From contig JAUIHT010000003.1 of NCBI GenBank assembly GCA_030432235.1, positions 1 through 64,000 on the forward strand: 64,000 bases of DNA. The letters run 5' to 3'. Below are positions 1-18,460 of this stretch, in pieces; the first letter of the stretch is position 1, and the number at the start of each line of letters is the position of its first letter. A program made the translations under genes and the position numbers. The notes beneath the pieces are model-generated. The model saw nothing but the letters and a program-made list of their open reading frames with translations. It made no database searches and was not told the DNA's origin. Source of the stretch: Verrucomicrobiia bacterium. GTDB lineage: Bacteria; Verrucomicrobiota; Verrucomicrobiia; Opitutales; Cerasicoccaceae.

Positions 1-19
1 CTAGTGTCCTGCGAGTTAA
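1..19 (+). repeat. IS630 left terminal inverted repeat
   Basis: The 19 bases are the exact reverse complement of 1140-1158. Pairing stops at base 20. Confidence 0.95.
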
Positions 20-62
20 ATTAGCTAAATAATTGGCAAGCATCCTGCATCCTGTGTAATTG

Positions 63-1133
63 ATGTCAAAAGGAAGACCAGTAGAAGCGATAAAATTAAC
101 AGAGACTGAACGTGGCAAGCTTGAGCTGATGGCCTCACGTCCGAAGTCGAGCCAGCGTGATGCGCAGCGTGCGAGCATCATCCTTGCTTGCGCAGAAGGG
201 TTGGCCAATCAGACCGTTGCCCTCCGCACGGGCGTGTGTGTGCAGACTGTGGGCAAATGGCGTTCCCGCTTCGCTACTGGGCGCATGGAGGCGCTTGTGG
301 ACGCGCCTCGCCCGGGAGCGCCCCGGACGATATCGGATGAAAAAGTCGAGCAGGTGGTGACTGATACATTGGAGCAAAAGCCCAAAGCCCGCAGCCATTG
401 GAGCAGCCGCCTAATGGCTGAAAAATCAGGCATCTCCGACCATTCCGTGCGGCGCATCTGGAAGGCCTTTGGATTGAAACCGCACCAAGTCCAAAGCTTC
501 AAACTTTCCAAAGACCCGATGTTCGTGGAGAAGGTTCGCGACATTGTGGGCTTGTACCTAAATCCGCCTGAGAAGGCCATGGTCTTATGTGTGGACGAGA
601 AGAGTCAGTGCCAGGCCTTGGAGCGCACCCAGCCGATTTTGCCAATGCGCCCAGGCATTCCCGAGCGTCAAAGCCATGACTACGAGCGTCACGGAACCCT
701 CTCGCTGTTCGCTGCTTATGACGCAGCCACCGGACGAGTCCTGGGCAAGAGCCACGCCCGCCACCGCAGTCAGGAGTTCCTGAAGTTTTTGAAGGAAATC
801 GATACCGCCTGGCCCGACGACGGTAACGAACTGCATATCATCATGGACAACTATGCCACCCACAAAACGGATAAAGTACAGCGCTGGCTGGAGCGCCATC
901 AGCGCTTTCAGATTCACTTCACGCCAACCGGAGCCTCATGGATAAACCTGGTCGAGCGATTCTTTGGTAAAATCACCACAGAAGCCATCCGGCGGGGCTC
1001 ATTTACTTCGGTCAATCAACTCAAGAAGGCCATGGACCAATACATCGACATGCACAACGAAGACCCAAAGCCGTTCAAATGGGCCGCTACCACTGAATCG
1101 ATCTTCGAAAAAATGCACATATCTCTTTCTTAA
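63..1133 (+). CDS. IS630 family transposase
   Basis: DDE transposase that cuts and rejoins the element ends. The N-terminal 110 residues are helix-rich and contain a helix-turn-helix segment (NQTVALRTGVCVQTVGKW) for binding the terminal repeats. The catalytic DDE domain follows: VDEKSQCQ supplies the first Asp, IIMDNYATHK the second, and NLVERFFGKI the Glu. The GASWINLVERFF block is typical of IS630/Tc1-mariner enzymes. The length of 356 residues is normal and the frame is unbroken. A TTG at 60 is in frame, but ATG at 63 is the more likely start. No accessory gene lies within the element. Confidence 0.95.
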   Translation: MSKGRPVEAIKLTETERGKLELMASRPKSSQRDAQRASIILACAEGLANQTVALRTGVCVQTVGKWRSRFATGRMEALVDAPRPGAPRTISDEKVEQVVTDTLEQKPKARSHWSSRLMAEKSGISDHSVRRIWKAFGLKPHQVQSFKLSKDPMFVEKVRDIVGLYLNPPEKAMVLCVDEKSQCQALERTQPILPMRPGIPERQSHDYERHGTLSLFAAYDAATGRVLGKSHARHRSQEFLKFLKEIDTAWPDDGNELHIIMDNYATHKTDKVQRWLERHQRFQIHFTPTGASWINLVERFFGKITTEAIRRGSFTSVNQLKKAMDQYIDMHNEDPKPFKWAATTESIFEKMHISLS

Positions 1134-1139
1134 GCGGTC

Positions 1140-1158
1140 TTAACTCGCAGGACACTAG
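1140..1158 (-). repeat. IS630 right terminal inverted repeat
   Basis: Exact reverse complement of bases 1-19. It lies seven bases after the transposase stop codon. Confidence 0.95.
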
Positions 1159-1168
1159 TCGACCTTTA

Positions 1169-1483
1169 CAGCGCTCCACGGAGTCACTTCGGTGCCCTAT
1201 TTAGCTCTTACGGTGGCCTGAAGAGCCATTACGGTGCCCTTTCCCGCTCTTACGGTGCTCTATCTTACTATTATTTTACTCTATTCCGGGATTACGGTGC
1301 CCTATCTTGCAATTACTCTGACAATAATGACCGTTCAGGGCACAATAATGACAGGTTAGAGCACAGTACTGAGCGTTCTGGGCAGCGGAATAGCAATATA
1401 GGGCACCGAAAGCGCCGTTCAGGGCAGTGTAAAAGCTCGCACGGGCAACGTAAGCACTCGCACGAGCCCCACAAGAACCAGAT
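1169..1483. repeat. Degenerate 21-bp periodic array 1
   Basis: About fifteen units of exactly 21 bp follow one another with no insertion or deletion. The unit starts I traced are 1190, 1211, 1232, 1253, 1274, 1295, 1316, 1337, 1358, 1379, 1400, 1421, 1442 and 1463. Left-hand units share CGGTGCCCTAT and end in ATTA or CTTA. From about 1337 the shared core becomes AGGGCAC, its reverse complement, so the array switches orientation near 1320-1337. Units are otherwise strongly diverged. Because 21 is a multiple of three, some frames stay open (seven-residue periodic peptides on the minus strand), but in-frame stops and the absence of a start argue against a gene. The IS630 copy lies immediately to the left. 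Confidence 0.85.
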
Positions 1484-1519
1484 AGAGGAGGCCGGTGGCT
1501 GACCGGAGTCTGCGCCCTA

Positions 1520-1554
1520 TCCTTCGTGCTCTTCGTGTCCTTCGTGGTTAAACC
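1520..1554. repeat. CTTCGTG word repeat in the gap before ppc
   Basis: Three consecutive copies of CTTCGTG at about 9-bp spacing end in GGTTAAACC. A shorter relative (CCTTCGTGGTTAAATCAC) lies at about 28230 beside miaB. I see no gene in 1484-1653. The remainder is unremarkable sequence leading to the ppc start. Confidence 0.6.
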
Positions 1555-1653
1555 GCGACGCCCTGTGCGGCCAAACACCCTGCGCTACTGCCCGCGATAA
1601 TCTCCCCTAATCCTAGGCTGGACAAGCACGCGTCTTGCTATGGTGTAGGGCTT

Positions 1654-4359
1654 ATGCCGCAAAACGCCCATTTTGCCCAACTCGTCGCCGAGGGCTTCGA
1701 CACTATCGACCGCAAGCTGGCTTTCCTGACGGAGTCCGCCGCCGCGCTCTTCGAACACCTCGGGGAGAAAGGCTGCGCCGCGCTCATCCGCGGGGAGAAA
1801 GCCGGCGCCAAGCTGCCCGCACGCGGGGCCGAGGCTCTGTCGCTCTACTTTCAACTGCTCAACCTCGCCGAGGAGTACGCCGCCAACAATACCCGTCACC
1901 GCCGCGAGCGCGAGCTGGGCGCGGAGGCCGAGCCGGGCCTGTTTGGGAGCTACTTCGCCCTGCTGGAAAAGAAGGGGCTCGATGCAACGGCGGTCAGCGC
2001 GGCCATCGGGGCGGCCTTTGTCGAGCCGGTCTTCACCAAGCACCCCACCGAGGCCAAACGCTGGCCCGTGCTCGGCCTGCATCGCGAGTTGTACCGGCTC
2101 TTGCCACAGCTTGCCGCCTCCTCCACCCCCTTTGAGCAGGAGCGCGCCGCCGAGGAGGTCCGCGCCGTGCTGGAGCGCCTTTGGCGTACGGGCGAGGTCT
2201 TCATGCGCAAGCCCGACGTGGCCGACGAGCTCGAAAACCTGCTCTATTATCTGCAGGAAGTCTTCCCGGCGGCTGTCAAACAGCTCGACGACCGCCTGCG
2301 CTTCGCCTGGCACCAGAGCGGCTTCGGGCAAAAGATGGCCGAGCCGGCCTACCCACAGCTCGCCTTCGGATCCTGGGTCGGCGGCGACCGTGATGGGCAC
2401 CCGCTGGTTACGGCGGACATTACCCTGAAGGCCCTGCGCCGCCTGCATCAGGGGGCGGTCAAGGCCCTCGACGCCGAGCTGGAAAAGCTCGAGCGCGCCG
2501 TGCGCTTTTCCCGCCATGTGCAGGAGACCCCCGCCGCGCTGCGCAAGCGCCTGCTGGGCAAAGCCCGCGGCGGCGACCTGCCCGACGAGCCCTGGCGCGC
2601 CTTTGTCATCGATATGCGGGCCAAGCTCAAGGCCGGCGAGGGCCACGGCTACGCCGCCCCGGAAGACCTTTCCGCCGACCTCGACCTCATGGCCGCGTGC
2701 CTGACGGAGGTTCACGGCGAGGCCCTGGCCCAGCGCCTCATCGCGCCCATCCAGCGACTGGTCGACACCTTCGGCTTCCACCTGGCCGCGCTGGACATCC
2801 GCCAGAACAGCGGCTTCCATGACAAGGCCCTGGCCCAGCTCATGATCGCCGGCGGCGTGCCCAACGCGGCCAAGTGGGCGGACTGGTCCGAGGCCGACCG
2901 CCTCGAATTGCTCAACCACGAGCTGACCACGCCGCGCCCCTTCGCCCAAAAGGGTCGCCTGGCCGGACCCGAGGCCGAGGCCGTGCTCGACTGCTTCACC
3001 GTCGCCACCGCCCATCTCGACCGCCATGGCCGCGCCGGACTCGGCGCGCTGGTTGTCAGTATGACGCGCCAGCTCTCCGACCTGCTGGCGGTCTTCCTCC
3101 TCGGGCGCGAGACCGGCCTGACCCGCCTGGCCGACGACGGCCTCGTCTGCCGCCTGCCGGTGGTGCCGCTCTTCGAAACCCTGGACGACCTCGTGGCCAG
3201 CGACGGCATCCTCGGCGACTTTTTGGACCACCCCGTGACCAAGCGCAGCCTCAAGCTCCTCGCCGAAAAGGACGAACGCTACCGCACCGCCGACGGCAAG
3301 CCCGTGCAGCTCGTCATGCTCGGTTACAGCGATAGCAACAAGGACTGCGGCATCATCGCCAGCCAGTGGGCGCTCTACCAGGCGCAGCTCCGGCTGGTCA
3401 AAATCGCGAAAAAGCGCGGCATCGCCCTGCGGTTCTTCCACGGGCGCGGCGGCACGGTCAGTCGCGGGGCCGGGCCGACGCACCGCTTCCTCGAGGCCCT
3501 GCCCAGCGGCTCCCTGGAGGGCGGCATGCGTCTGACCGAGCAGGGCGAGGTCATCGGCCAGAAGTTCAACAACCTCGAAACCGCCACCTGGAATCTGGAG
3601 CTGCTCGCCGCCGGATCCGTCGGCGCGGCACTGCTGGACGGCAACGCCGTCGCCACCAAGAAGGACGAGGCCTTGGTTGCCGCCCTGGCCGAGTCCAGCC
3701 GCGAGCTTTACCAATCGCTCCTGCGCACGGACGGCTTCATCGAATTCTACCGGGGCGCGACCCCCATCGACGTTTTGGAGCAGAGCCGCATCGGCTCCCG
3801 CCCGTCCCGCCGCACCGGCGCACAGACACTGGACGACCTCCGCGCCATCCCTTGGGTCTTTAGCTGGAACCAGGCGCGGTTTTACCTGCCCGGCTGGTTC
3901 GGCGTCGGCACCGCCCTGGCAAATTTGCAGGCCAGCGACCCGAAGTCCTACGCGCGTTTGCAGAAGCACTGGAAGGCCTGGCCTTTCCTGCGCTACCTGC
4001 TCTACAACGTCGAGACCTCCTTGGCCAGCGCCAGCCCCAAATGGATGGCCGACTATGCCGCGCTCGTGCCCAACGCCACCGTGCGCAAACGCTTCATGGA
4101 AAAAATCCTCGGCGAGTACGAGCTCACCCGCGCCCAGCTTTCCGCCCTGTTCGGCGGGGACACCGCCACACGCCGCCCGCGCTTTGTCAAGACACTTGAG
4201 GCCCGCGACTGGGGCCTCCGCTGTCTGCACGCCGAGCAAATCCGCCTGCTCAAGGCCTGGCGCGCCGCCCCCGGCTCCGGCAAGAAGTCGCAGGAGATTT
4301 TGACCGACCTCTTGCAGTCCGTCAACGCCATCGCCAGCGGCCTGCGCACGACGGGGTAA
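1654..4359 (+). CDS. ppc: Phosphoenolpyruvate carboxylase
   Basis: Carboxylates phosphoenolpyruvate with bicarbonate to oxaloacetate, refilling the TCA cycle; cytosolic. The N-terminal catalytic signature VFTKHPTEAKR places the catalytic His at about residue 130. The second signature (LGYSDSNKDCG) is near residue 557, and the glycine-rich loop FFHGRGGTVSRGAGP near 595. The C-terminus ends in SGLRTTG, close to the usual GLRNTG end needed for activity. The 901-residue length is normal for bacterial PEPC. The ATG at 1654 follows a short leader without a clear Shine-Dalgarno sequence. The gene appears monocistronic, with repeat-rich gaps on both sides. Confidence 0.97.
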   Translation: MPQNAHFAQLVAEGFDTIDRKLAFLTESAAALFEHLGEKGCAALIRGEKAGAKLPARGAEALSLYFQLLNLAEEYAANNTRHRRERELGAEAEPGLFGSYFALLEKKGLDATAVSAAIGAAFVEPVFTKHPTEAKRWPVLGLHRELYRLLPQLAASSTPFEQERAAEEVRAVLERLWRTGEVFMRKPDVADELENLLYYLQEVFPAAVKQLDDRLRFAWHQSGFGQKMAEPAYPQLAFGSWVGGDRDGHPLVTADITLKALRRLHQGAVKALDAELEKLERAVRFSRHVQETPAALRKRLLGKARGGDLPDEPWRAFVIDMRAKLKAGEGHGYAAPEDLSADLDLMAACLTEVHGEALAQRLIAPIQRLVDTFGFHLAALDIRQNSGFHDKALAQLMIAGGVPNAAKWADWSEADRLELLNHELTTPRPFAQKGRLAGPEAEAVLDCFTVATAHLDRHGRAGLGALVVSMTRQLSDLLAVFLLGRETGLTRLADDGLVCRLPVVPLFETLDDLVASDGILGDFLDHPVTKRSLKLLAEKDERYRTADGKPVQLVMLGYSDSNKDCGIIASQWALYQAQLRLVKIAKKRGIALRFFHGRGGTVSRGAGPTHRFLEALPSGSLEGGMRLTEQGEVIGQKFNNLETATWNLELLAAGSVGAALLDGNAVATKKDEALVAALAESSRELYQSLLRTDGFIEFYRGATPIDVLEQSRIGSRPSRRTGAQTLDDLRAIPWVFSWNQARFYLPGWFGVGTALANLQASDPKSYARLQKHWKAWPFLRYLLYNVETSLASASPKWMADYAALVPNATVRKRFMEKILGEYELTRAQLSALFGGDTATRRPRFVKTLEARDWGLRCLHAEQIRLLKAWRAAPGSGKKSQEILTDLLQSVNAIASGLRTTG

Positions 4360-4433
4360 GCAGGCAAAGTCGTGCGGGACAAATCGGATTTCCGCCATGC
4401 CCCTGCGCGATGTTGGTTTGCCCGGTGTTCCGC

Positions 4434-4680
4434 TTGGTTTGCCCCAAAGGGGCTACGTATTTTAGCCCCAAGTTGGGAGCTTGCGACCTACCTGGGGTTA
4501 CTGAACGGCATCCTATAAAACCCCAACGGGGTTTCGGAAACGGCAAGGCCCCCGGTGACGTCTTTTTTCGCAACCCCTTCGGGGTAGGTGTTTTTACCGA
4601 ACGATGACCCCAGGTAGGCCTAGCGGCCAACCTGGGGCTAAACTCCGCAGCCCCGTTGGGGCAAGAGCCCCCATATTCCA
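4434..4680. repeat. Cluster of GC-rich palindromes downstream of ppc
   Basis: The gap 4360-4825 holds a series of short hairpins such as CCCCAAAGGGG, CCCCAACGGGG and ACCCCTTCGGGGT. A longer pair, CCTACCTGGGGT (4487-4498) and ACCCCAGGTAGG (4607-4618), is a perfect 12-bp inverted repeat enclosing several of them. The hairpin at about 4574 is followed by a T-rich run near 4591 and could end ppc transcription. An upstream-extended frame crosses the region, but its sequence is low-complexity and I do not take it as coding. Confidence 0.7.
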
Positions 4681-4825
4681 GATATTAATAAAGACTTGCC
4701 CGTTTACCCAGGCCGTTGCCCTGATCTATTATGGGTCGCACCGTTGGCGCTTTTGTTGGATGCCGATTGGTGCAAACGGCGATATTCCGATTGGCATGCC
4801 GTGTCAGAACCGCATACTCCCGGGT

Positions 4826-5404
4826 ATGCGTTTGATAGCTGCCATCTTGATAACTGCCCTGCTCCATGGTTATGCTGCCGCAGAGGAGCAGCCCACGGAA
4901 ACCGTCACCGTCGACGAGACGCTCATCGTCTTGGAGGAAGCGCCGCCCGAGGACGAGGCCAGTGAGGAGGAGAAGGCCAGCTACTGGGAGCGCGTACGCC
5001 AACAGTACGAGTCCGCCAAGGCCAAGGGCAGCGAGTGGGCCGACAAGACCCAGGAGGCCAGCGGCGAGCTGATGGACAAAGCGCGCGACTCTACCAACGA
5101 GTGGTACGAGCAGGCCCGCGACTGGACGAAGGAGGACATCGGCAAGGCTGGCACCTGGCAGTACCGCGTCATCACCGTCTGGAACAAGGATGTGGCCCGG
5201 GGCCCCGAGCAGGTCGAAGCCATGTTCAACGCATTGGGCAAGGAACGCTACGAGTGCTTCTGGGTCGAACCCATCGACCAAAACCGCATGGCCTTCTTCT
5301 TCAAGAAATCAGGCGTCAGTTTCATCCGCTCGATTCCCGCCAAGGAGTTCTGGCGTTTTCTACCCAGTGGAGGAGACAGCAACGACGGCAGCAGTTCTGA
5401 CTAG
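4826..5404 (+). CDS. Secreted protein with C-terminal DUF4177-like domain
   Basis: A 192-residue exported protein of unknown role. The start chosen at ATG 4826 gives a clean signal peptide (MRLIAAILITALLHGYAAA, cleavage before EEQ). The frame stays open upstream to 4604, but that part covers the palindrome cluster and looks non-coding. An acidic stretch and a charged helical segment (about residues 50-110) follow the signal. The C-terminal 70 residues (from WQYRVITVWNKD, with NALGKERYECFWVEP) resemble DUF4177-type small domains. The gene ends 30 bp before the symporter gene and may be co-transcribed with it. Confidence 0.75.
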   Translation: MRLIAAILITALLHGYAAAEEQPTETVTVDETLIVLEEAPPEDEASEEEKASYWERVRQQYESAKAKGSEWADKTQEASGELMDKARDSTNEWYEQARDWTKEDIGKAGTWQYRVITVWNKDVARGPEQVEAMFNALGKERYECFWVEPIDQNRMAFFFKKSGVSFIRSIPAKEFWRFLPSGGDSNDGSSSD

Positions 5405-5433
5405 GTATCCATCCTGCTTTGTTCTTTGACCCC

Positions 5434-6861
5434 ATGGAGTGGCTGAACGGCATCCTCAAATCCATCAACGGCGTCCTGTGGGGCTATCTGCTGATTTACC
5501 TGCTGCTCGGCACGGGCCTGTACTTCACCGTACGCACGCGCTTCGTGCAGGTGCGGCTCTTCTGGCGTTCGATCAAGGAAATCGTCGGCGGCTTCAGCGG
5601 CGGTGAGGACGGCGGCATCTCGCCCTTCCAGGCCTTCGCCACCGGCTTGGCCAGCCGCGTGGGCACCGGCAACATCGTCGGGGTGGCCATCGCGTTGTCG
5701 CTGGGCGGCCCCGGCGCGATCTTCTGGATGTGGATGACCGCGCTGCTGGGCATGTCTAGCTCCCTCATCGAGTGCTCGCTGGCGCAGCTTTACAAGGTCA
5801 AGCACGGCGGGGACCATTCCTTCCGCGGCGGGCCGGCCTACTACATACAGATGGGACTCCGGCAGCGCTGGGTGGGCGTGCTCTTTGCCCTGGCGCTGCT
5901 GCTGTGCTTCGGGCTGGTCTTCAACGCCGTGCAGGCGAACTCCATCACCGCCGTGATGGAAGAGAACTACAACGCGCCGGACTGGCTGGTGGGGCTCATC
6001 CTCGTGGGGCTCTCCGCTCCGGTCATCTTCGGCGGGCTGCGCAGCGTGGCCGTGCTGGCGGGCGTGCTGGTGCCGATCATGGCAGTGAGCTACCTGGCCA
6101 TGGCAGGCTACTCCGTGCTCAGCCACATCACCGAGCTGCCCGGCGTGCTGTGGCTTATCGTCAAATGCGCCTTCGGGCTGGAGCAGGCTGCGGGCGGCTT
6201 CACCGGGTTCGCCGTCTCGCAGGCGCTCAGCATGGGCATCAAGCGCGGGCTGTTCTCCAACGAGGCCGGGATGGGCTCGGCCCCGAACGCCGCCGCCACC
6301 GCCACCGCCACGCATCCCATCTCACAGGCGCTGCTGCAAATGCTGGGCACCTTCATCGACACCGTCATCGTCTGCACCGCCACCGCCGCGATGATCCTGC
6401 TGTCCGGCGTTTACACACCTGAGGCCGGGGCCATCGGGGCGCGTCTGACCCTGGCCGCACTGGAGAGCGAGATCGGCACCTGGGGCGGACACTTCCTCGC
6501 CGTAGCGCTGTTCTTTTTCGGGTTTTCCTCAGTCATCGGCAACTACGCCTACGCCGAGGGCAACGTGGAGTTCATCAAGAAGACTCCGAAGGTTATGCTG
6601 GTCTTCCGCATCCTCGTGCTGGGGATGGTGTTCTTCGGCGCGGTGGGCGAGGTGCCTGTTATCTGGAACCTGGCGGACTTCTCCCAGGCGCTCATGGCCA
6701 TCATCAACCTCGTGGCCATCCTCCTGCTCGGCGGCGTGGCCTTCCAACTGTTGAAGGACTACGAATGCCAGCTCAAAGACGGTAAGACCACGCCGAAATT
6801 CACCCGCGACCGCCTGCCGAAGGTCCGCGGGGAGCTCGGCGAAGGCGTCTGGGAGGACTGA
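5434..6861 (+). CDS. Sodium/alanine symporter, AGCS family
   Basis: Inner-membrane transporter importing alanine or glycine with sodium. About eleven hydrophobic segments are visible. Family signatures include FATGLASRVGTGNIVGVA (around residue 70), the GGPAYYIQMG block, and SNEAGMGSAPNAAA in the second half. The length of about 475 residues is typical of AlsT/DagA-like proteins. A TTG at 5419 is in frame; ATG 5434 (MEWLNGIL) matches the usual family N-terminus better. Substrate preference (alanine, glycine or glutamine) cannot be read from the sequence. The minus-strand gene that follows is convergent. Confidence 0.93.
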   Translation: MEWLNGILKSINGVLWGYLLIYLLLGTGLYFTVRTRFVQVRLFWRSIKEIVGGFSGGEDGGISPFQAFATGLASRVGTGNIVGVAIALSLGGPGAIFWMWMTALLGMSSSLIECSLAQLYKVKHGGDHSFRGGPAYYIQMGLRQRWVGVLFALALLLCFGLVFNAVQANSITAVMEENYNAPDWLVGLILVGLSAPVIFGGLRSVAVLAGVLVPIMAVSYLAMAGYSVLSHITELPGVLWLIVKCAFGLEQAAGGFTGFAVSQALSMGIKRGLFSNEAGMGSAPNAAATATATHPISQALLQMLGTFIDTVIVCTATAAMILLSGVYTPEAGAIGARLTLAALESEIGTWGGHFLAVALFFFGFSSVIGNYAYAEGNVEFIKKTPKVMLVFRILVLGMVFFGAVGEVPVIWNLADFSQALMAIINLVAILLLGGVAFQLLKDYECQLKDGKTTPKFTRDRLPKVRGELGEGVWED

Positions 6862-6870
6862 CTTTTGCAC

Positions 6871-6901
6871 AAAAAAAGGCCGCCCCGGCAATGGGACGGC
6901 C
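6871..6901 (-). terminator. Rho-independent terminator for the minus-strand gene
   Basis: A 9-bp GC-rich stem (6878-6886 with 6893-6901, one wobble) is followed on the minus strand by seven T (6871-6877). It lies between the convergent stops at 6861 and 6927. Confidence 0.85.
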
Positions 6902-6926
6902 CTGGAAAGGTGAAGTACGCGGCGGC

Positions 6927-8081
6927 TTACTGAATGTCTTCGGGCAGGACCATGTCGAAGGTCAGCGTGTCGCGGTTGAAGATGTACCAGGCCTCGGTCA
7001 GCAGGGAGTAGTAGGCGCCGGGGATGTCGCGGTCGACATAGAGCCAGTCGCCCTGCTCGTCGCAGTAGACCCACAGGATGGTATCGCTGATCGCCACGGT
7101 GTAGAGCGGCCCGAGGCGCGGGGACTGAATCCACTCGGAGTTGGGCAGCAGCCGGATGATGCCGAGGTTGGGGTCGAAGGAGAGCCCGCCGCCGATTTTC
7201 TTGCTCGAAAAATAAGCCGGGGGCGTGCCGCCGCCCACGCCGAGGACGTAGCAGTCGAACTTGAACACGTCGCTGCCCTCGGTGATGACCACGGGGATGA
7301 GGCTGCCGTCGCTGGCCTCGCCACAGACGACCAAGCCGGGCCCGCCGCGGTAGTGGATCATGTACACCTTGTCGTTCTGCTCGTTGGACTGGGAGACGTA
7401 CCAGTTGTTGCGGAAGCTCAAGTCGGTGGCGGTCCTGGCCACCTCGACGAGGCTGCGCATGGTCCCGACGATTTCCAGGTGGAAGGCGCTGTAGATGGTT
7501 TCACCGACGGCCTTGCCCACCGACAGGTAGGTGCGCGCGCTGTTGGTGTCCGAGCCCTGGGCGGTGACGAGGTTGCGAATCTGCATGGTGCGGCCGTCCC
7601 GCAAGTTGATGTCCTTAATGTCGAACTGGATGGCGAGGTTCAGCTCTTCGGGCAGGTAGGAGTACTCGTCCTGGTCGTCGCCCAGGCCCAGGCCGAGAAC
7701 GGGCGGCACGGTGCCGTTGTCGTTCTCGATGTTGTCGAGGAACCAGTCCCCGGTGTCGTCGTCCTTCCGGCGGTCGACTTCCCAGCGCAGGCGAATCTGG
7801 TTGTCGTCGCTTCCCTTGTCGGTGTCGGTTTCGATGTCGTCGCAGGGGTCCTGGGTGGAGTCGTACTCGTCGATGTGGACGTAGGCGCTGCCGGTGTAGA
7901 GGGGCGCGCCGTTCTTGTCGTAAAAGCGGAAATAGACGTCGTTTTCGTCGCAATCGAGGATGGCGCCGAAGGCGGGTGTGGCGGCGGCCAGCCCGAGCAG
8001 GCCGGCGAGAAGGAGCTTACTGGTAGCCCGCGGGGTGAAGGAGCGGGCAGCGGCAGTGATTTGGCGTGTTTTATCTGTCAT
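6927..8081 (-). CDS. Unknown secreted protein, 384 aa
   Basis: No family recognised. The start at 8081 (MTDKTRQIT) gives a signal peptide ending in LLGLAAATPAFG, with cleavage before AILDCDEN at about residue 41. Upstream in-frame codons as far as 8213 would add an unlikely cytoplasmic extension. The mature part is acidic, rich in Asp, Tyr and Gly, and looks beta-rich. Three Cys occur in the first half (such as DCDEND and DPCDD) and others in CGEASD, DCYVLG and VYCDEQ, possibly paired. No C-terminal sorting motif is visible. The gene has its own terminator, and its 258-bp upstream gap is shared with the divergent PAS gene. Confidence 0.7.
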   Translation of the reverse strand: MTDKTRQITAAARSFTPRATSKLLLAGLLGLAAATPAFGAILDCDENDVYFRFYDKNGAPLYTGSAYVHIDEYDSTQDPCDDIETDTDKGSDDNQIRLRWEVDRRKDDDTGDWFLDNIENDNGTVPPVLGLGLGDDQDEYSYLPEELNLAIQFDIKDINLRDGRTMQIRNLVTAQGSDTNSARTYLSVGKAVGETIYSAFHLEIVGTMRSLVEVARTATDLSFRNNWYVSQSNEQNDKVYMIHYRGGPGLVVCGEASDGSLIPVVITEGSDVFKFDCYVLGVGGGTPPAYFSSKKIGGGLSFDPNLGIIRLLPNSEWIQSPRLGPLYTVAISDTILWVYCDEQGDWLYVDRDIPGAYYSLLTEAWYIFNRDTLTFDMVLPEDIQ

Positions 8082-8189
8082 GAGTAGTACTTTGGTTGGT
8101 ATAGAGAGCGAAAAATACCCGTGTCCGGCATTCAGGACTTTAGAGCCATTCGGGGCAACCTTATTCCCGGAAAGTGTCTGTTTATAAAG

Positions 8190-8215
8190 GTTTGCGGATA
8201 GCATCCACCGCAAAC
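8190..8215. other. Strong hairpin in divergent promoter region
   Basis: GTTTGCGG (8190-8197) and CCGCAAAC (8208-8215) form a perfect 8-bp stem with a 10-base loop. It lies between the secreted-protein gene (start 8081, minus) and the PAS gene (start 8340, plus). No poly-T follows, so an operator or leader structure is more likely than a terminator. I tried to match the region to known riboswitch classes and could not. Confidence 0.5.
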
Positions 8216-8339
8216 ACAGCTACCATAAGGCCTGCAAAACCCCGGCGCCCGCTAAAGGCTTTACCCCAAAGAATTGGTAAAGTCGTCCCGAAACTTGCCG
8301 ATAAGCAAGAAGCTGATGGTAAATCAGTTCGGCTAGTAC

Positions 8340-9113
8340 ATGAAAACAAACGACCACTACCTCAAACAGGAATTCGACCAGTTGCTTAAAGAAGGACCCC
8401 ATTTCCTCGACTTCCTCGAGGCGGGCTCGCTGGACGGTACCTGGTACTGGGACCTCGAACAGCCGGAAAACGAGTGGATGAGCGAGCGCTTCTGGAAGCT
8501 CTTCGGCTACGAGCGGCACGAAAAGAAGCACCTGGCCAGCGAATGGCAGGACATGATCCATCCCGAGGACCTCAAGCGCGCCACCGAGAATTTCCAAAAG
8601 CACCTCAAGGACCCCGAGCAGCCCTATGACCAGGTCGTGCGCTACCGCCACCGGGATGGGCACACCATCTGGGTGCGCTGTCGGGGCATCGCCATCCGTG
8701 ATAAGAGCGGACGGCCCGTCCGCATGCTCGGCAGCCATATCGACATCACCGCGCAGATGGAAGCCGAGGCCGCCCTGCGGCGCAAAACCATCGAGCTGGA
8801 GAAAACCAACCGCCAGCTCCAGGAAGCCCTGGATAAAATCCAGACGCTCAAGGGCCTCGTCCCCATTTGCACCCACTGCAAGAGCATCCGGGACGACCAG
8901 GGCTTCTGGCAGGACGTCGAGGAGTACGTCGAGGCTCATTCCACGGCTGAGTTCTCCCACAGCCTCTGCCCGGACTGCCTGGAAGAGCACTATCCGGAGC
9001 TCTCCCGGGATGTCAAAGACCGCATCCTCGAGAAAGAGCGGGAGGACGCCGAGGCGGGTGAAAAAACCAAGATGGGCAAACGCCTCATCAAGGCGCCCGA
9101 CTGGGCCGGCTAG
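8340..9113 (+). CDS. PAS domain protein with C-terminal CxxC/CxxC domain
   Basis: Probable cytosolic signalling protein of 257 residues. A PAS fold with PAC motif covers about residues 28-140 (WYWDLEQPENEWMSERFW, IHPEDLKRA, GSHIDITAQMEAE). A coiled coil follows (about 141-170). The C-terminal module runs from GLVPICTHCKSIRDDQGFW through EAHSTAEFSHSLCPDC, with Cys at 177, 180, 210 and 213. That module often terminates PAS and response-regulator proteins, and the four Cys suggest metal binding. There is no kinase, cyclase or DNA-binding domain, so output must go through a partner. Leader and start (ATG 8340) are clear. Confidence 0.85.
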   Translation: MKTNDHYLKQEFDQLLKEGPHFLDFLEAGSLDGTWYWDLEQPENEWMSERFWKLFGYERHEKKHLASEWQDMIHPEDLKRATENFQKHLKDPEQPYDQVVRYRHRDGHTIWVRCRGIAIRDKSGRPVRMLGSHIDITAQMEAEAALRRKTIELEKTNRQLQEALDKIQTLKGLVPICTHCKSIRDDQGFWQDVEEYVEAHSTAEFSHSLCPDCLEEHYPELSRDVKDRILEKEREDAEAGEKTKMGKRLIKAPDWAG

Positions 9114-9139
9114 TGGATTCCACCACAAGCAAAGCCCCT

Positions 9140-9649
9140 TTAACCGCCTGAATAGTCCATTTAGCGGTTAACCCACTGGATTTAGTCGCCAATCGCGTCG
9201 ATTTAGCCGCTCTCCAAGTCCGTTTAGGAGCAAGAATAGTCGGTTTAGAAGCATATCCACCGAATGTAATAGCTCACTGAGTCGATGTAATAGCTCACTG
9301 AGCTGGTGTAGAAGCTCTCTGAGTCGATGTAGAAGCTCACTGAGTGCGTATAATGCCTCACTGAGCCAATATAATCCCTCGATGAGCGCATATAATCACG
9401 AGGTGAGCGCATGTAATGTCTCACTGAGTAGATATAATGACCTGTAGAGTAACTCATCGAGGTATTTTACGGGCTCGGCAGGCGCTTACAGCGTCTTATC
9501 GCGCTTCTATAGAGGCTGTGCGAGCTTCTGAATTCACTTTGAGAGCTCCCATAATGGCCATGAGAGGCTCTCTATTGACTTGGCAGGCTCCTTCAGCCGC
9601 TCGGCGACCTGCCCCACGCGCTCAGTAGCCTGCTAAACCAACTCATTTT
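9140..9649. repeat. Degenerate 21-bp periodic array 2
   Basis: Roughly 24 units of 21 bp. The TTAG/GTAA/ATAA core recurs at 9161, 9182, 9203, 9224, 9245, 9266, 9287, 9308, 9329, 9350, 9371, 9392, 9413 and 9434 without a single indel. Central units read CTCACTGAGTCGATGTAATA. After about 9445 a different core (GCTTCT, GCTCCC, GGCTCT, GCTCCT) recurs at 9482, 9503, 9524, 9545, 9566, 9587 and 9608. Its GAGCT/GAGAGCT word resembles the reverse complement of the left-hand AGCTC, suggesting an orientation switch as in array 1. Sequence divergence is high while spacing is fixed. No gene is supported in 9114-10061. Confidence 0.85.
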
Positions 9650-10050
9650 CCGGCTCAGGGACAAAGGCCCACCTTATAATAGCCTGGGGCAACGCTCCAG
9701 GTGAACGGACCGCCCCATTATCATGAAGGGCCGAAGGCCCGCGCTAAAGATGCCGCTGCTGCAGCCTCTCTGGCATCCCTCCGGGATGCATTTATGTCAT
9801 TACAGCTCCGGGGGTGTCGCTCGTACCTCGCTCAACCCCCGGCTAATGGCTGATAAGCCTCCGGCTTAATCCAAGGATGAGTACCATGATTCGCCCAGCA
9901 AGCCGCTCGGGGCGCTAGATGTCCCGTTCGGGCAACTTTGCCTCCGGCTCAGGGCCAAAGGCCCGCTCTATAACAGCCTGGGGCAACGCCCCAGGTCAGC
10001 GGATGCCCCCGTCGATATCGAGGGCTGAAGGCCCGTGCTAAATCAAGGGC
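9650..10050. repeat. Composite of palindromic elements, partly duplicated
   Basis: Two related blocks of about 100 bp (9650-9755 and 9950-10045) share the same order of words: GGCTCAGGG..AAAGGCCC, a hairpin CCTGGGGCAACGCYCCAGG (9683-9701 and 9977-9995), then GGGCYGAAGGCCCGYGCTAAA. Between them lie other hairpins (CATCCCTCCGGGATG, and CCGGGGGT paired with ACCCCCGG-like arms). A relative of the CAAC-loop hairpin occurs at 28016-28034. This style resembles palindromic intergenic repeats I know from several environmental phyla; their function is unknown to me. Confidence 0.75.
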
Positions 10051-10061
10051 CGCCCGACGCG

Positions 10062-11768
10062 CTAACGCGACCGTTTGCCGCCGCGTCGATTCTCCTTGGG
10101 ACGGGCTTTGCCGTGTTTGGAGAGCGTATTGACGGCGCGTTTGTCCTTACCGGAGGTGTCCACGGTGTGGTAGGGGTTGTCGGCGGTCTTGCCGACCAGC
10201 TCGAAGCGCATGGGGCAGCCGCGCAGGTCGAAGCTTTGCCGCAGACCGGCATCCAGGTAGCGGCGGTAGCCGTCTTCGAGCTGCTCCGCCCGGTTGCAGA
10301 AGAACTTTATCGTGACGGGGCGGGTTGCCACCTGCGTGGCGTAGTAGATTTTAAAGCGACGCCCCCCGACGACCCGCGCCGGCTGCCGGTCGGTCAGCTT
10401 GCGCAGCGTGTTGTTGAGCACGCCGGTGGGCAGGGGCGTCTCCATGGCGGCGTCGACCTGCCGAGCGGCGCTGAGGAGCGTCTCGACGCGGAAGCCGCTC
10501 TTGGCCGAGACGAACAAAACCGGCGACTCCGGCAGGAAAAACAGCTCGGTCTGGATGGCCTCGATGAAGGCCTTGCGGAACTCGCGCTCGCCGTCGTAGC
10601 CGCGCAGCGAATCCTGCTGGAATTTCTCCAGCGCGAGGTCCCACTTGTTGACGACGATGACAAGGCCTTTGCCCGCCTCCAGGATTTGCCCGGCGAGGGT
10701 CTTGTCGTGCTTGCCCACGCCGGTAAGGGCGTCGAGGACCAGCAGCGCGACGTCTGCACGCTGGATCGCGCCCTCCGTGCGCAGCCCGGAAAAGTAGTCC
10801 AGGGACGAGCCAATCTTGCGCTTCGGCTTCACCCCGGCCGTGTCCATGAGGCGGAAGCGCCAGAGGGGACCGCCTGCGGCGGGTTTATCGGTTTTCGGTT
10901 CCCCGTTTTCGGTTTCCGGTTCGAGCACTTGTGGCTCAAGCGAGTCATCAGGCAGTTCAACAGAGTCCTCCTCCCCCTCCTGGCTTTCAGCTTTCAGCTT
11001 TTGGCTTTCAGTCTCCGCCTCCTGACCCTCGTCGGTTGGCTCTTGACGGGCTACCTCCGCCTGGGCGCGCTCCTTGGCCTGCGGCTTGTAGTCGAGGTCC
11101 AGCTCAATCGCATCGCGCGTCGTCCCGGCGACTTCACTGACGATGAGGCGCGGGGCTTTGAGCAGGGCGTTGCCGAGGGAGGACTTGCCGACGTTGGGTT
11201 TGCCGCAGAGGCAGATGTTGATGCGGCGGTGCTTGGCCTCCTTGTCGTAAAAGGGCGGCTTGTAGGGGCCGAGCTTGTCGAGGATTTCAGCGTGAAGCTC
11301 CTCCGCGCCCTCGCCGTGCTCGGCGGAAACCGCGATGGGGTCGCCGAAGCCCAGCTCGTAGAAGTCGTTGAACTTCTTTTGCGCCGAGGGCTTGTCCATC
11401 TTGTTGACGACCAGCAGGACAGGCTTGCCGGAGCGGCGGAATTGCTCGGCCAGCTCGCGGTCGATGGAGGTGAGTCCCTCAATGCCGTCGACGACGAACA
11501 CCACCAGCCCGGCGGCGGTGACGGCAAAGCCCACCTGCTCCTCCGTCGCGCTGTGGATGAGCTCCGGGGTCATCTCGGGCTTCATGCCAATACCCCCGGT
11601 GTCGAAAAGCGTGTACTGTTTCGCAATCTCCGCCGTGGCCAGGTCCCGCGTGACGCCCGGCTGGTCGTGCACGATGGCGATGCGGCGGCGCGCCAGCCTG
11701 TTGAAAAGGCGGCTCTTGCCGACATTGGGGCGGCCGACCAGGGCCACGCTGCGCTCGGGAGGAATCAT
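10062..11768 (-). CDS. der: Ribosome biogenesis GTPase Der (EngA) with unusual insertion
   Basis: Double-Era GTPase that assists 50S subunit assembly. G domain 1 carries [12 protein letters not shown] and NKMD. G domain 2 carries [18 protein letters not shown] and NKWD, and is followed by the KH-like domain ending in the basic tail RRGGKRSR. The 568-residue length exceeds the usual 430-490. Most of the excess is an acidic, repetitive segment of about 70 residues between G2 (TTRD, about residue 216) and G3 (DTAG, about 307), containing [10 protein letters not shown] and [11 protein letters not shown]. It is encoded by DNA resembling the intergenic AAGCTTTCAG-type repeats. Start chosen at ATG 11768; ATG 11789 adds seven residues. 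Confidence 0.95.
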
Positions 11769-11866
11769 GAACCGGCCACTCACGCACATTCCGCGCCCGC
11801 CGTCGAGCTTTGATATAAACGCTAAGCGCTAAATGCTGAACGCTTAATCCGTAACGTGCCGATATG

Positions 11867-11940
11867 GCCGCAGATGGACGTAAATTAGCGCAGATTGGTA
11901 TCCCTTTGAAATCTGCGTTTCATCTGCGTCCATCTGCGGC
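11867..11940. repeat. ATCTGCG-word inverted repeat between der and ribE
   Basis: The left arm (11867-11896, GCCGCAGATGGACG...GCGCAGATT) is an imperfect reverse complement of the right arm (11910-11940). The right arm contains three copies of ATCTGCG at 10-11 bp spacing. It lies 60 bp upstream of ribE and about 100 bp upstream of der, in the divergent gap. No FMN riboswitch consensus is visible here. Confidence 0.75.
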
Positions 11941-11999
11941 TGATAATATACATGCCCTCCGTGGTTGCACTCGGCGGCGGGGGTGTTGAAACTGGCGGT

Positions 12000-12590
12000 A
12001 TGTTCACGGGACTTGTGGAGGAAACCGGCGCCGTCGTGTCGCTGGAGGAACAAGCGGAGGCCTGGCGCCTGACGCTGGAGGCGGACCTCGTCCTGCCTCT
12101 GGCCATCGGTGACAGCCTGGCCTGCAACGGCTGCTGCCTGACCGTAGTCGCCGCCGAGGGCAAGCGCCTCTCCTTCGACCTTTTGGAGGAATCCCTGCGC
12201 CTGACCAGCTTCCACCAGTACAAACCCGGCGACAAGGTGAACCTCGAGCGCAGCCTGAAGGCCGACGCGCGCCTGGGCGGTCACTTCGTCAGCGGACACG
12301 TCGACTGCACCGGGGAGGTCACCGTCTTCGAGCCGCGCGGGAAAAACCACTACCTGCGCGCGGAGGTCCCGGCGGAGTTTCAAAAATACCTCGTCTACAA
12401 GGGCAGCGTCGCCCTCGACGGCATCTCACTGACCGTGGCCGAGGCCGACGACGCAGGCCTGGCCGTCTGGCTCATCCCGCACACGCTGGAGGTGACCAAC
12501 CTCCACCAGCGCAAGGTCGGCGACGCCATCAACCTTGAGTTCGACCTGCTGGCCAAGTACGTCGAGAAGCTTTTACCCGAAAAGATTTAA
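12000..12590 (+). CDS. ribE: Riboflavin synthase, alpha subunit
   Basis: Dismutates two 6,7-dimethyl-8-ribityllumazine molecules to riboflavin. The start at ATG 12000 gives the canonical N-terminus [10 protein letters not shown]. Two lumazine-binding barrel repeats are visible: the first with [13 protein letters not shown] and the second with [14 protein letters not shown]. The internal [15 protein letters not shown] block is a family hallmark. The length of 196 residues is normal. A further in-frame ATG at 11952 would add a non-conserved extension. No other riboflavin gene is adjacent, so the pathway genes are dispersed. Confidence 0.96.
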
Positions 12591-18312: not shown

Positions 18313-18460
18313 AGCTAAAAGTGAAAAGCTCAAAGCTAAAAGCTAAAAGAAGGATGACAAGATACGCCATCGAACGGAGAGGCCTCCTCGCATTTCAAGA
18401 CATATTTAAGCACGCTCTTCCGACTTTCTGCTTTTAGCTTTGAGCTTTTCACTTTTAGCT
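18313..18460. repeat. Perfect 30-bp inverted repeat in a divergent promoter
   Basis: 18313-18342 (AGCTAAAAGTGAAAAGCTCA and ten more) is the exact reverse complement of 18431-18460. The arms are 88 bp apart. Seven and nine bases, both rich in pyrimidine on the sense strand, separate each arm from the start codons at 18305 (minus) and 18470 (plus). Thus both divergent genes have almost the same 5' leader. Related imperfect copies occur at 14838-14954, at 35951-35988 and inside der. Confidence 0.9.

Follow-up and report, generated by a model that had tools for sequence, protein, structure and literature searches.

Array 1 is built of degenerate units set on an exact 21-bp lattice and lies within the 64,000-nucleotide stretch of DNA analysed here (the window). 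What is demonstrated is the lattice, the presence of two inward-facing arms at four host loci carrying this unit (type A), a consensus common to these unlinked loci and, in most arms, the conservation of particular columns. The reading that we favour, with the balance tipped modestly towards it, is that array 1, like several other arrays in the host, is a row of degenerate putative binding sites spaced by exactly two helical turns, of a kind seen so far in this lineage only, and that it would be read by an oligomerising trans-acting protein.

Array 1 keeps an exact 21-bp lattice across an orientation switch

The autocorrelation at lag 21 is a real signal: identity within 1159–1500 is 0.536 at lag 21, 0.527 at lag 42 and 0.434 at lag 63, against a mean of 0.249 (SD 0.024) and a maximum of 0.340 in 2000 dinucleotide-preserving shuffles. 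The run of equal-length units described in the sequence-only reading is borne out, extending from 1166 to ~1474 with no length change, and array 1 thereby shows the tandem direct repeats of ~17–22 bp at constant spacing that characterise iteron-type arrays. Tandem Repeats Finder reported it merely as three short pieces because its units are only ~55% alike. With a matrix derived from the three other type-A loci, seven forward matches (1166 to 1292) and six reverse matches (1328 to 1433) were found in 1159–1700 above the cut-off, the 99.9% level of random units; the seventh reverse unit (1454–1474) is weak. Comparison of the two sides of the cut between the arms, on the lattice, gives an identity of 0.539 in inverted orientation versus 0.303 in direct orientation. 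Coordinates are collected in Table 1.

Table 1. Features of the window and host loci with type-A units
Feature	Position	Strand	Description
IS630-like insertion sequence	1..1158	+	transposase ~60-1133 with DDE_3 and HTH domains; adjoins array 1, at contig end
Left arm, array 1	1166..1312	+	seven forward 21-bp units, consensus TTACGGTGCCCTATnnnGCnA
Orientation switch, array 1	1313..1327	.	lattice preserved; switch near 1320
Right arm, array 1	1328..1474	-	seven reverse-complement units, of which six exceed the random 99.9% level
Phosphoenolpyruvate carboxylase gene (ppc)	1654..4359	+	downstream of array 1; context
Second 21-bp array (W2)	9131..9660	.	unit ATGTAATAGCTCACTGAGTCG; left arm ~9194-9445, right arm ~9457-9645, inverted
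Type-A locus matched by R1	C42:1166-1451		
Type-A locus matched by R1	C42:82307-82591		
Type-A locus matched by R1	C4:55043-55282		
Type-A locus matched by R1	C37:1010816-1011186		

Type-A units at four host loci share the lattice and the inward orientation

BLAST searches with array 1 identified two further host loci, on contigs C4 and C37, and no match in 53 relatives; the plasmid and phage collections likewise gave no match to array 1. A 63-bp sequence model built from three-unit windows of four type-A loci (R1) returned 23 host matches (E ≤ 0.01). None lies outside these four loci, as expected since R1 was built from them, and the same origin of the model qualifies the observation that 23/23 of its matches lie on the shared lattice. 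With strict filters on, R1 found no fifth type-A locus in the host. Outside the host, R1 gave one marginal match each in G005 and G036 among the 53 relatives, non-periodic and coding-looking by eye, and a single match (E 7.8e-5) in one of 383 other genomes of the class.

The lattice was examined with leave-one-locus-out matrices, with match position taken as the centre of the core GGTGCCC and the random 99.9% level as cut-off. In both orientations together, 53 of the 62 matches fall in one residue class modulo 21 (13/13 in array 1, 12/13 at C4, 16/19 at C37 and 12/17 at L100). The three off-lattice matches of C37 all lie outside the array, and three of the five at L100 are shifted by 10 bp, half a unit. 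The earlier statement that the GGTGCCC and AGGGCAC cores face the same side of the helix is correct, and it is true of most matches at the four type-A loci.

All four type-A arrays, of about 13–18 units each, consist of two inward-facing arms with the forward units on the left, so that TGCCCTA is directed at the centre. These loci may share ancestry and are therefore not four independent draws.

Period 21 recurs in the host genome with several unit types

Host samples of 864 kb and 800 kb were scored for periodicity by comparing lags 21, 42 and 63 with other lags; the sample was partly picked for known arrays (the window, C4 and C37:900–1140 kb). Arrays taken as non-coding were found in the first sample at window positions 1148 and 9264 and at L100, L104, L109, L124, L125 and L135 (0.29–0.46), and in the second at L198 (0.34), L193 (0.32) and, more weakly, L189 (0.23, counted). 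For the other periods from 15 to 30 the maximum in the host was 0.22 in the first sample and 0.26 in the second, and period 21 was the only one of this range with more than one score of at least 0.18 in either sample. Scores below 0.18 for period 21 were dropped from the census, as were L133 (0.192, 0.128; read as coding), L125:5741 (0.205; a GGC-rich short repeat overlapping ORFs) and L212:19739 (0.183). Also left out was L182:8833–9240, which has a strong 21-bp period (0.234, 0.155) and by eye resembles an adhesin-like coding repeat of seven residues.

The 1.2 Mb not selected for arrays contain six, three in C42:64–464 kb and three in C37:20–420 kb, and C37:1.14–1.5 Mb together with C38 has no period-21 array above 0.2. 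Extrapolation gives ~29 arrays in the 5.7 Mb host genome.

The arrays differ in both unit and architecture. L193 and L198 share TGTAAATGGCCATCGGAGC-like units (matrix correlation 0.87), the L109 unit is CACCGAATGACTCACATAGCG, and further array types differ again. Of the 78 matrix pairs, 25 are similar at p<0.05, nine of these inside one type or array. Two clear arms are seen in array 1, W2, L100, C37 and C4; L193 and L198 have a single orientation, and the switch is not clear in L109, L104 and L124. The L124 array (units with TTTCAGAA) is surrounded, within L124:19360–19990, by several CCTGAGCTCGTCGAAGG-like intergenic palindromes. A tandem repeat of another length, the 7-bp AGCTAAA in 5.3 copies, is present at 18313–18349 of the window.

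Gene contexts are varied and sampled relatives likely lack the arrays

Genes flanking the arrays are convergent at L100, tandem at W2 and divergent at C37 and C4, and array 1 lies upstream of ppc. Eleven proteins flanking six arrays (array 1 on one side) were scanned against Pfam, which gave names for seven (AIRS, aldehyde dehydrogenase, PAS, pyridine nucleotide oxidoreductase, FtsK, Mrr and PEP carboxylase) and no match for four. No replication initiator is among the seven named proteins; the four others, being without a Pfam match, may conceivably include one of an undescribed kind. The AIRS and aldehyde-dehydrogenase family proteins flank L100, where the genes read as ThiL and ProA. A common function of the named neighbours is not evident.

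The nearest relative, the genome of L015, was chosen by ppc (86% identical protein). It has ~95 bp and no array between ppc and the preceding gene, which reads as guaB, and its ppc locus has a period-21 score of 0.096. The decaying open reading frame that the sequence-only reading had named as a contrary outcome in related strains is thus not seen there, with the proviso that gene order may differ from the host. The proA-like locus of the same genome scores 0.058, and around the ThiL-like genes of nine family members the highest score is 0.098, with no array. These loci are not clean empty sites, because the thiL-like neighbour is absent at the proA-like locus and the gene upstream of ppc may differ.

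In wider samples, the period-21 maximum is 0.189 in the nearest relative (382 kb), 0.153 in the family member G001 (400 kb) and 0.14 in 80 loci from PVC-group and other genomes (972 kb). It is likely that arrays are absent from the samples of the nearest relative and G001, since about two would be expected in each at the unbiased density of the host.

Two RNA families were matched outside the arrays. Acido-Lenti-1 RNA (RF01687) was found on the minus strand at 9951–9995 of the window, between W2 and the gene at 10035, with 41.4 bits versus a gathering score of 37. On the minus strand of L109:16048–16216, RF02819 ('Vibrio RNA AS7') scored 108 bits, in what is a Verrucomicrobia-like genome, just upstream of a multi-domain oxidoreductase/sulfurtransferase gene.

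Conservation of unit columns and the case for a decaying minisatellite

The arrays might be the remains of an old, non-functional minisatellite: a 21-bp satellite, multiplied and scattered in the distant past, would now be decaying, its period being the memory of the ancestral unit. We consider this rather unlikely. Several types with one period could have a common ancestor, and there is some matrix similarity between types. However, neutral decay to ~55% identity is expected to leave indels, and the arms stay in phase although their units are ~55% identical. The lattice is also maintained over the orientation switch at four loci, and none of the period-21 arrays printed in the census is near-perfect.

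In a decaying minisatellite, units from one locus should also resemble each other more than they resemble units from other loci, and this is not what is observed: unit identity is 0.551 within and 0.554 between loci (permutation p 0.60; 40 units from array 1, C4 and C37). Star-like similarity of this kind is also compatible with an ancient burst. Left arms of the four type-A loci show no colinear order in 6/6 pairs. Similarity drops with unit distance in the right arm of array 1 (0.58 to 0.43) and the left arm of W2 (0.64 to 0.54), and not in other arms.

The spread of identity among unit columns is wider than uniform star decay would give in nine of the 14 arms (p<0.05), some columns being invariant and others random, which argues against uniform decay of a satellite; the excess is not reached by the left arms of array 1 and L100 or by L104, L124 and L193. 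Rows of binding sites would be expected to keep one consensus at unlinked loci, some columns conserved and others free, and the type-A loci share such a consensus. The earlier proposal that the spacing is constrained is supported by the single lattice for both orientations, the equal likeness of units within and between loci and the column-specific conservation.

Some internal structure is seen in the units. Among shifts 1–10, the strongest self-similarity of the type-A matrices is at shift 10 in 7/7 arms; the other eight arms have no half-repeat at 10 and peak at shift 9 (W2 and L109 left arm) or elsewhere. Adjacent columns 13–14, 16–17 and 4–5 covary in type-A units. GG in columns 5–6 and CG in columns 16–17 are near-exclusive (both in 1 of 40 units, one only in 17 and 11, neither in 11; Fisher p 0.004); this pair was picked post hoc from 210 column pairs and is suggestive at most.

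Structured RNA, mobile elements, coding relics and curvature

A second alternative, in which the transcribed arms would pair into a long, imperfect hairpin, appears improbable. Four of the five arrays folded do so better than dinucleotide shuffles (z -4.49, -4.66, -6.44 and -4.72), but the fifth does not (z -0.85), unit-for-unit pairing of the arms is absent in 6/6 arrays (p at least 0.059), and mismatches show no wobble bias (101 G.T versus 120 A.C; eight arrays, ungapped register). The low z-scores follow from the inverted motif itself, because the arms are unpaired in register and the mismatches balanced. No Rfam match overlaps an array in window 1–12000, L009, L010, L100, L104 or L109.

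Equally, we attach a low probability to a foldback-type mobile or miniature element with ends made of tandem 21-bp repeats. This would be consistent with the inverted arms at four unlinked loci and with their confinement to this genome among those searched, but not with left arms that are not colinear copies of one another, nor with several unit types sharing one period.

Descent from a protein gene encoding 7-residue repeats is very improbable: 21 bp equal seven codons, one unit-strand frame is open in 5/7 type-A arms and a 100-codon minus-strand ORF spans the right arm of array 1, but in the left arms of C4 and C37 that frame is interrupted by three stops apiece, third-codon-position variability is absent and the nearest relative has only the short gap before ppc.

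Of the bent-DNA or protein-array site suggested earlier from the 21-bp phasing, the static bend was rejected. Curvature predicted by a wedge model is within that of shuffles for 10/10 arrays (z -1.45 to +1.47); the phased A-tract control gives 0.56–0.69. The protein array stands as the best reading.

A model of protein-binding rows

With curvature, RNA folding and coding unsupported, what is left are sites whose letters and spacing are kept in trans, for which a cooperative protein binding along one face would be the simplest candidate. In this model, a trans-acting DNA-binding protein would read the units through a core around TGCCCTA together with flanking words. Because the sites return to one face of the helix, binding would probably be cooperative, with an oligomer extending along that side of the DNA and the two arms oriented towards one another. 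The resulting local nucleoprotein body may serve chromosome organisation, looping or insulation, or the control of nearby genes; an architectural role is favoured over a gene-specific one because the gene contexts are varied (convergent, tandem and divergent). Other array types may be recognised by this protein, its specificity then being loose, or by proteins related to it.

Two candidate binders found no support. Genes for HU/IHF are not raised in number (two in the host versus 2–5 in nine relatives), and no histone fold was found with PF00808.

Several observations count against rows of protein-binding sites. The array types have quite different consensus sequences; the loss of similarity with distance in some arms is what local duplication would give; five of the 14 arms, the left arm of array 1 included, are not above uniform decay; and there are arrays with a single orientation or without a clear switch, as well as the five off-lattice matches at L100.

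More tentatively, and as a possibility to which we give rather less than even weight, the arrays may constitute a lineage-specific system of chromosome architecture, in which a few dozen intergenic rows act as nucleation sites and an oligomerising protein assembles along one face from both ends to the central switch, with several site dialects and a fixed lattice constant. Several repeat sequences with the same helical spacing and drifting letters would make the constraint on spacing separable from that on sequence. The arrays would also offer a natural test of phased, directional nucleoprotein platforms in bacterial chromosomes outside promoters, origins and partition sites. Should the arrays be restricted to one lineage, as the searches indicate, a gene that co-occurs with them would lead directly to the binding protein.

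Relation to known repeat systems

Phased arrays of sites are already known as iterons and tandem operators. Iteron arrays of plasmid origins, such as the 22-bp iterons of R6K, are few near-identical copies at one origin beside a Rep gene. The present arrays resemble them in having direct repeats of about two helical turns, the feature by which iterons are bound on one face, but differ in being spread over several chromosomal loci, in their inverted arms and the degeneracy of their units, and in the lack of a Rep-like Pfam match to the flanking proteins scanned. Tandem operators (adjacent ARG boxes, pho boxes) have a centre-to-centre spacing of ~21–22 bp that similarly allows one-face binding; they comprise few sites at one promoter, whereas the type-A arrays have many more units beside unrelated genes. 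REP/BIME and other intergenic repeats are short palindromes in small clusters and, like the present arrays, are intergenic, repeated and oriented; type-A units are non-palindromic and lie on the exact 21-bp lattice.

Abundant intergenic heptamer repeats are also known: TAACTGA direct repeats are described in Beggiatoaceae, Cyanobacteria and Bacteroidetes (PMC4679880). Similar to the present arrays, they form many intergenic direct-repeat sets over one genome with a patchy taxonomy. They are seven bases long and in one species lie mostly just upstream of start codons, unlike the degenerate 21-mers described here, which occur in convergent, tandem and divergent contexts with some orientation symmetry. 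Intergenic tandem repeats of Planctomycetota are treated in PMC9426551. The open-licence literature searched (titles and abstract starts) yielded no report of two-armed rows of degenerate units that recur at many loci in several sequence dialects while holding to a single 21-bp period.

An IS630-like element probably interrupts array 1

The insertion sequence at the edge of array 1 has the inverted ends CTAGTGTCCTGCGAGTTAA / TTAACTCGCAGGACACTAG; its IS630 family name and TA duplication are presumptive. The IS end sequence is also present at the starts of contigs C37 (left end) and C38 (right end). When the C37 flank and the window flank are joined with a single TA, the 21-bp phase is preserved. 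With the matrix from three other loci, the nine best forward matches in the joined sequence share a phase, and two of these nine either span the insertion point or lie to its left; the six best reverse matches likewise share a phase. The best off-lattice scores are 1.6 (forward) and 3.0 (reverse), compared with a level of 4.1 that marks the upper 0.1% of random units. Because phase is kept across the joined flanks, it is most likely that the element inserted into an already existing array 1 and that contigs C37 and C42 are neighbours via the interrupted array. If C37 is indeed the neighbour, two more in-phase forward units of array 1 probably lie on it, past the insertion sequence.
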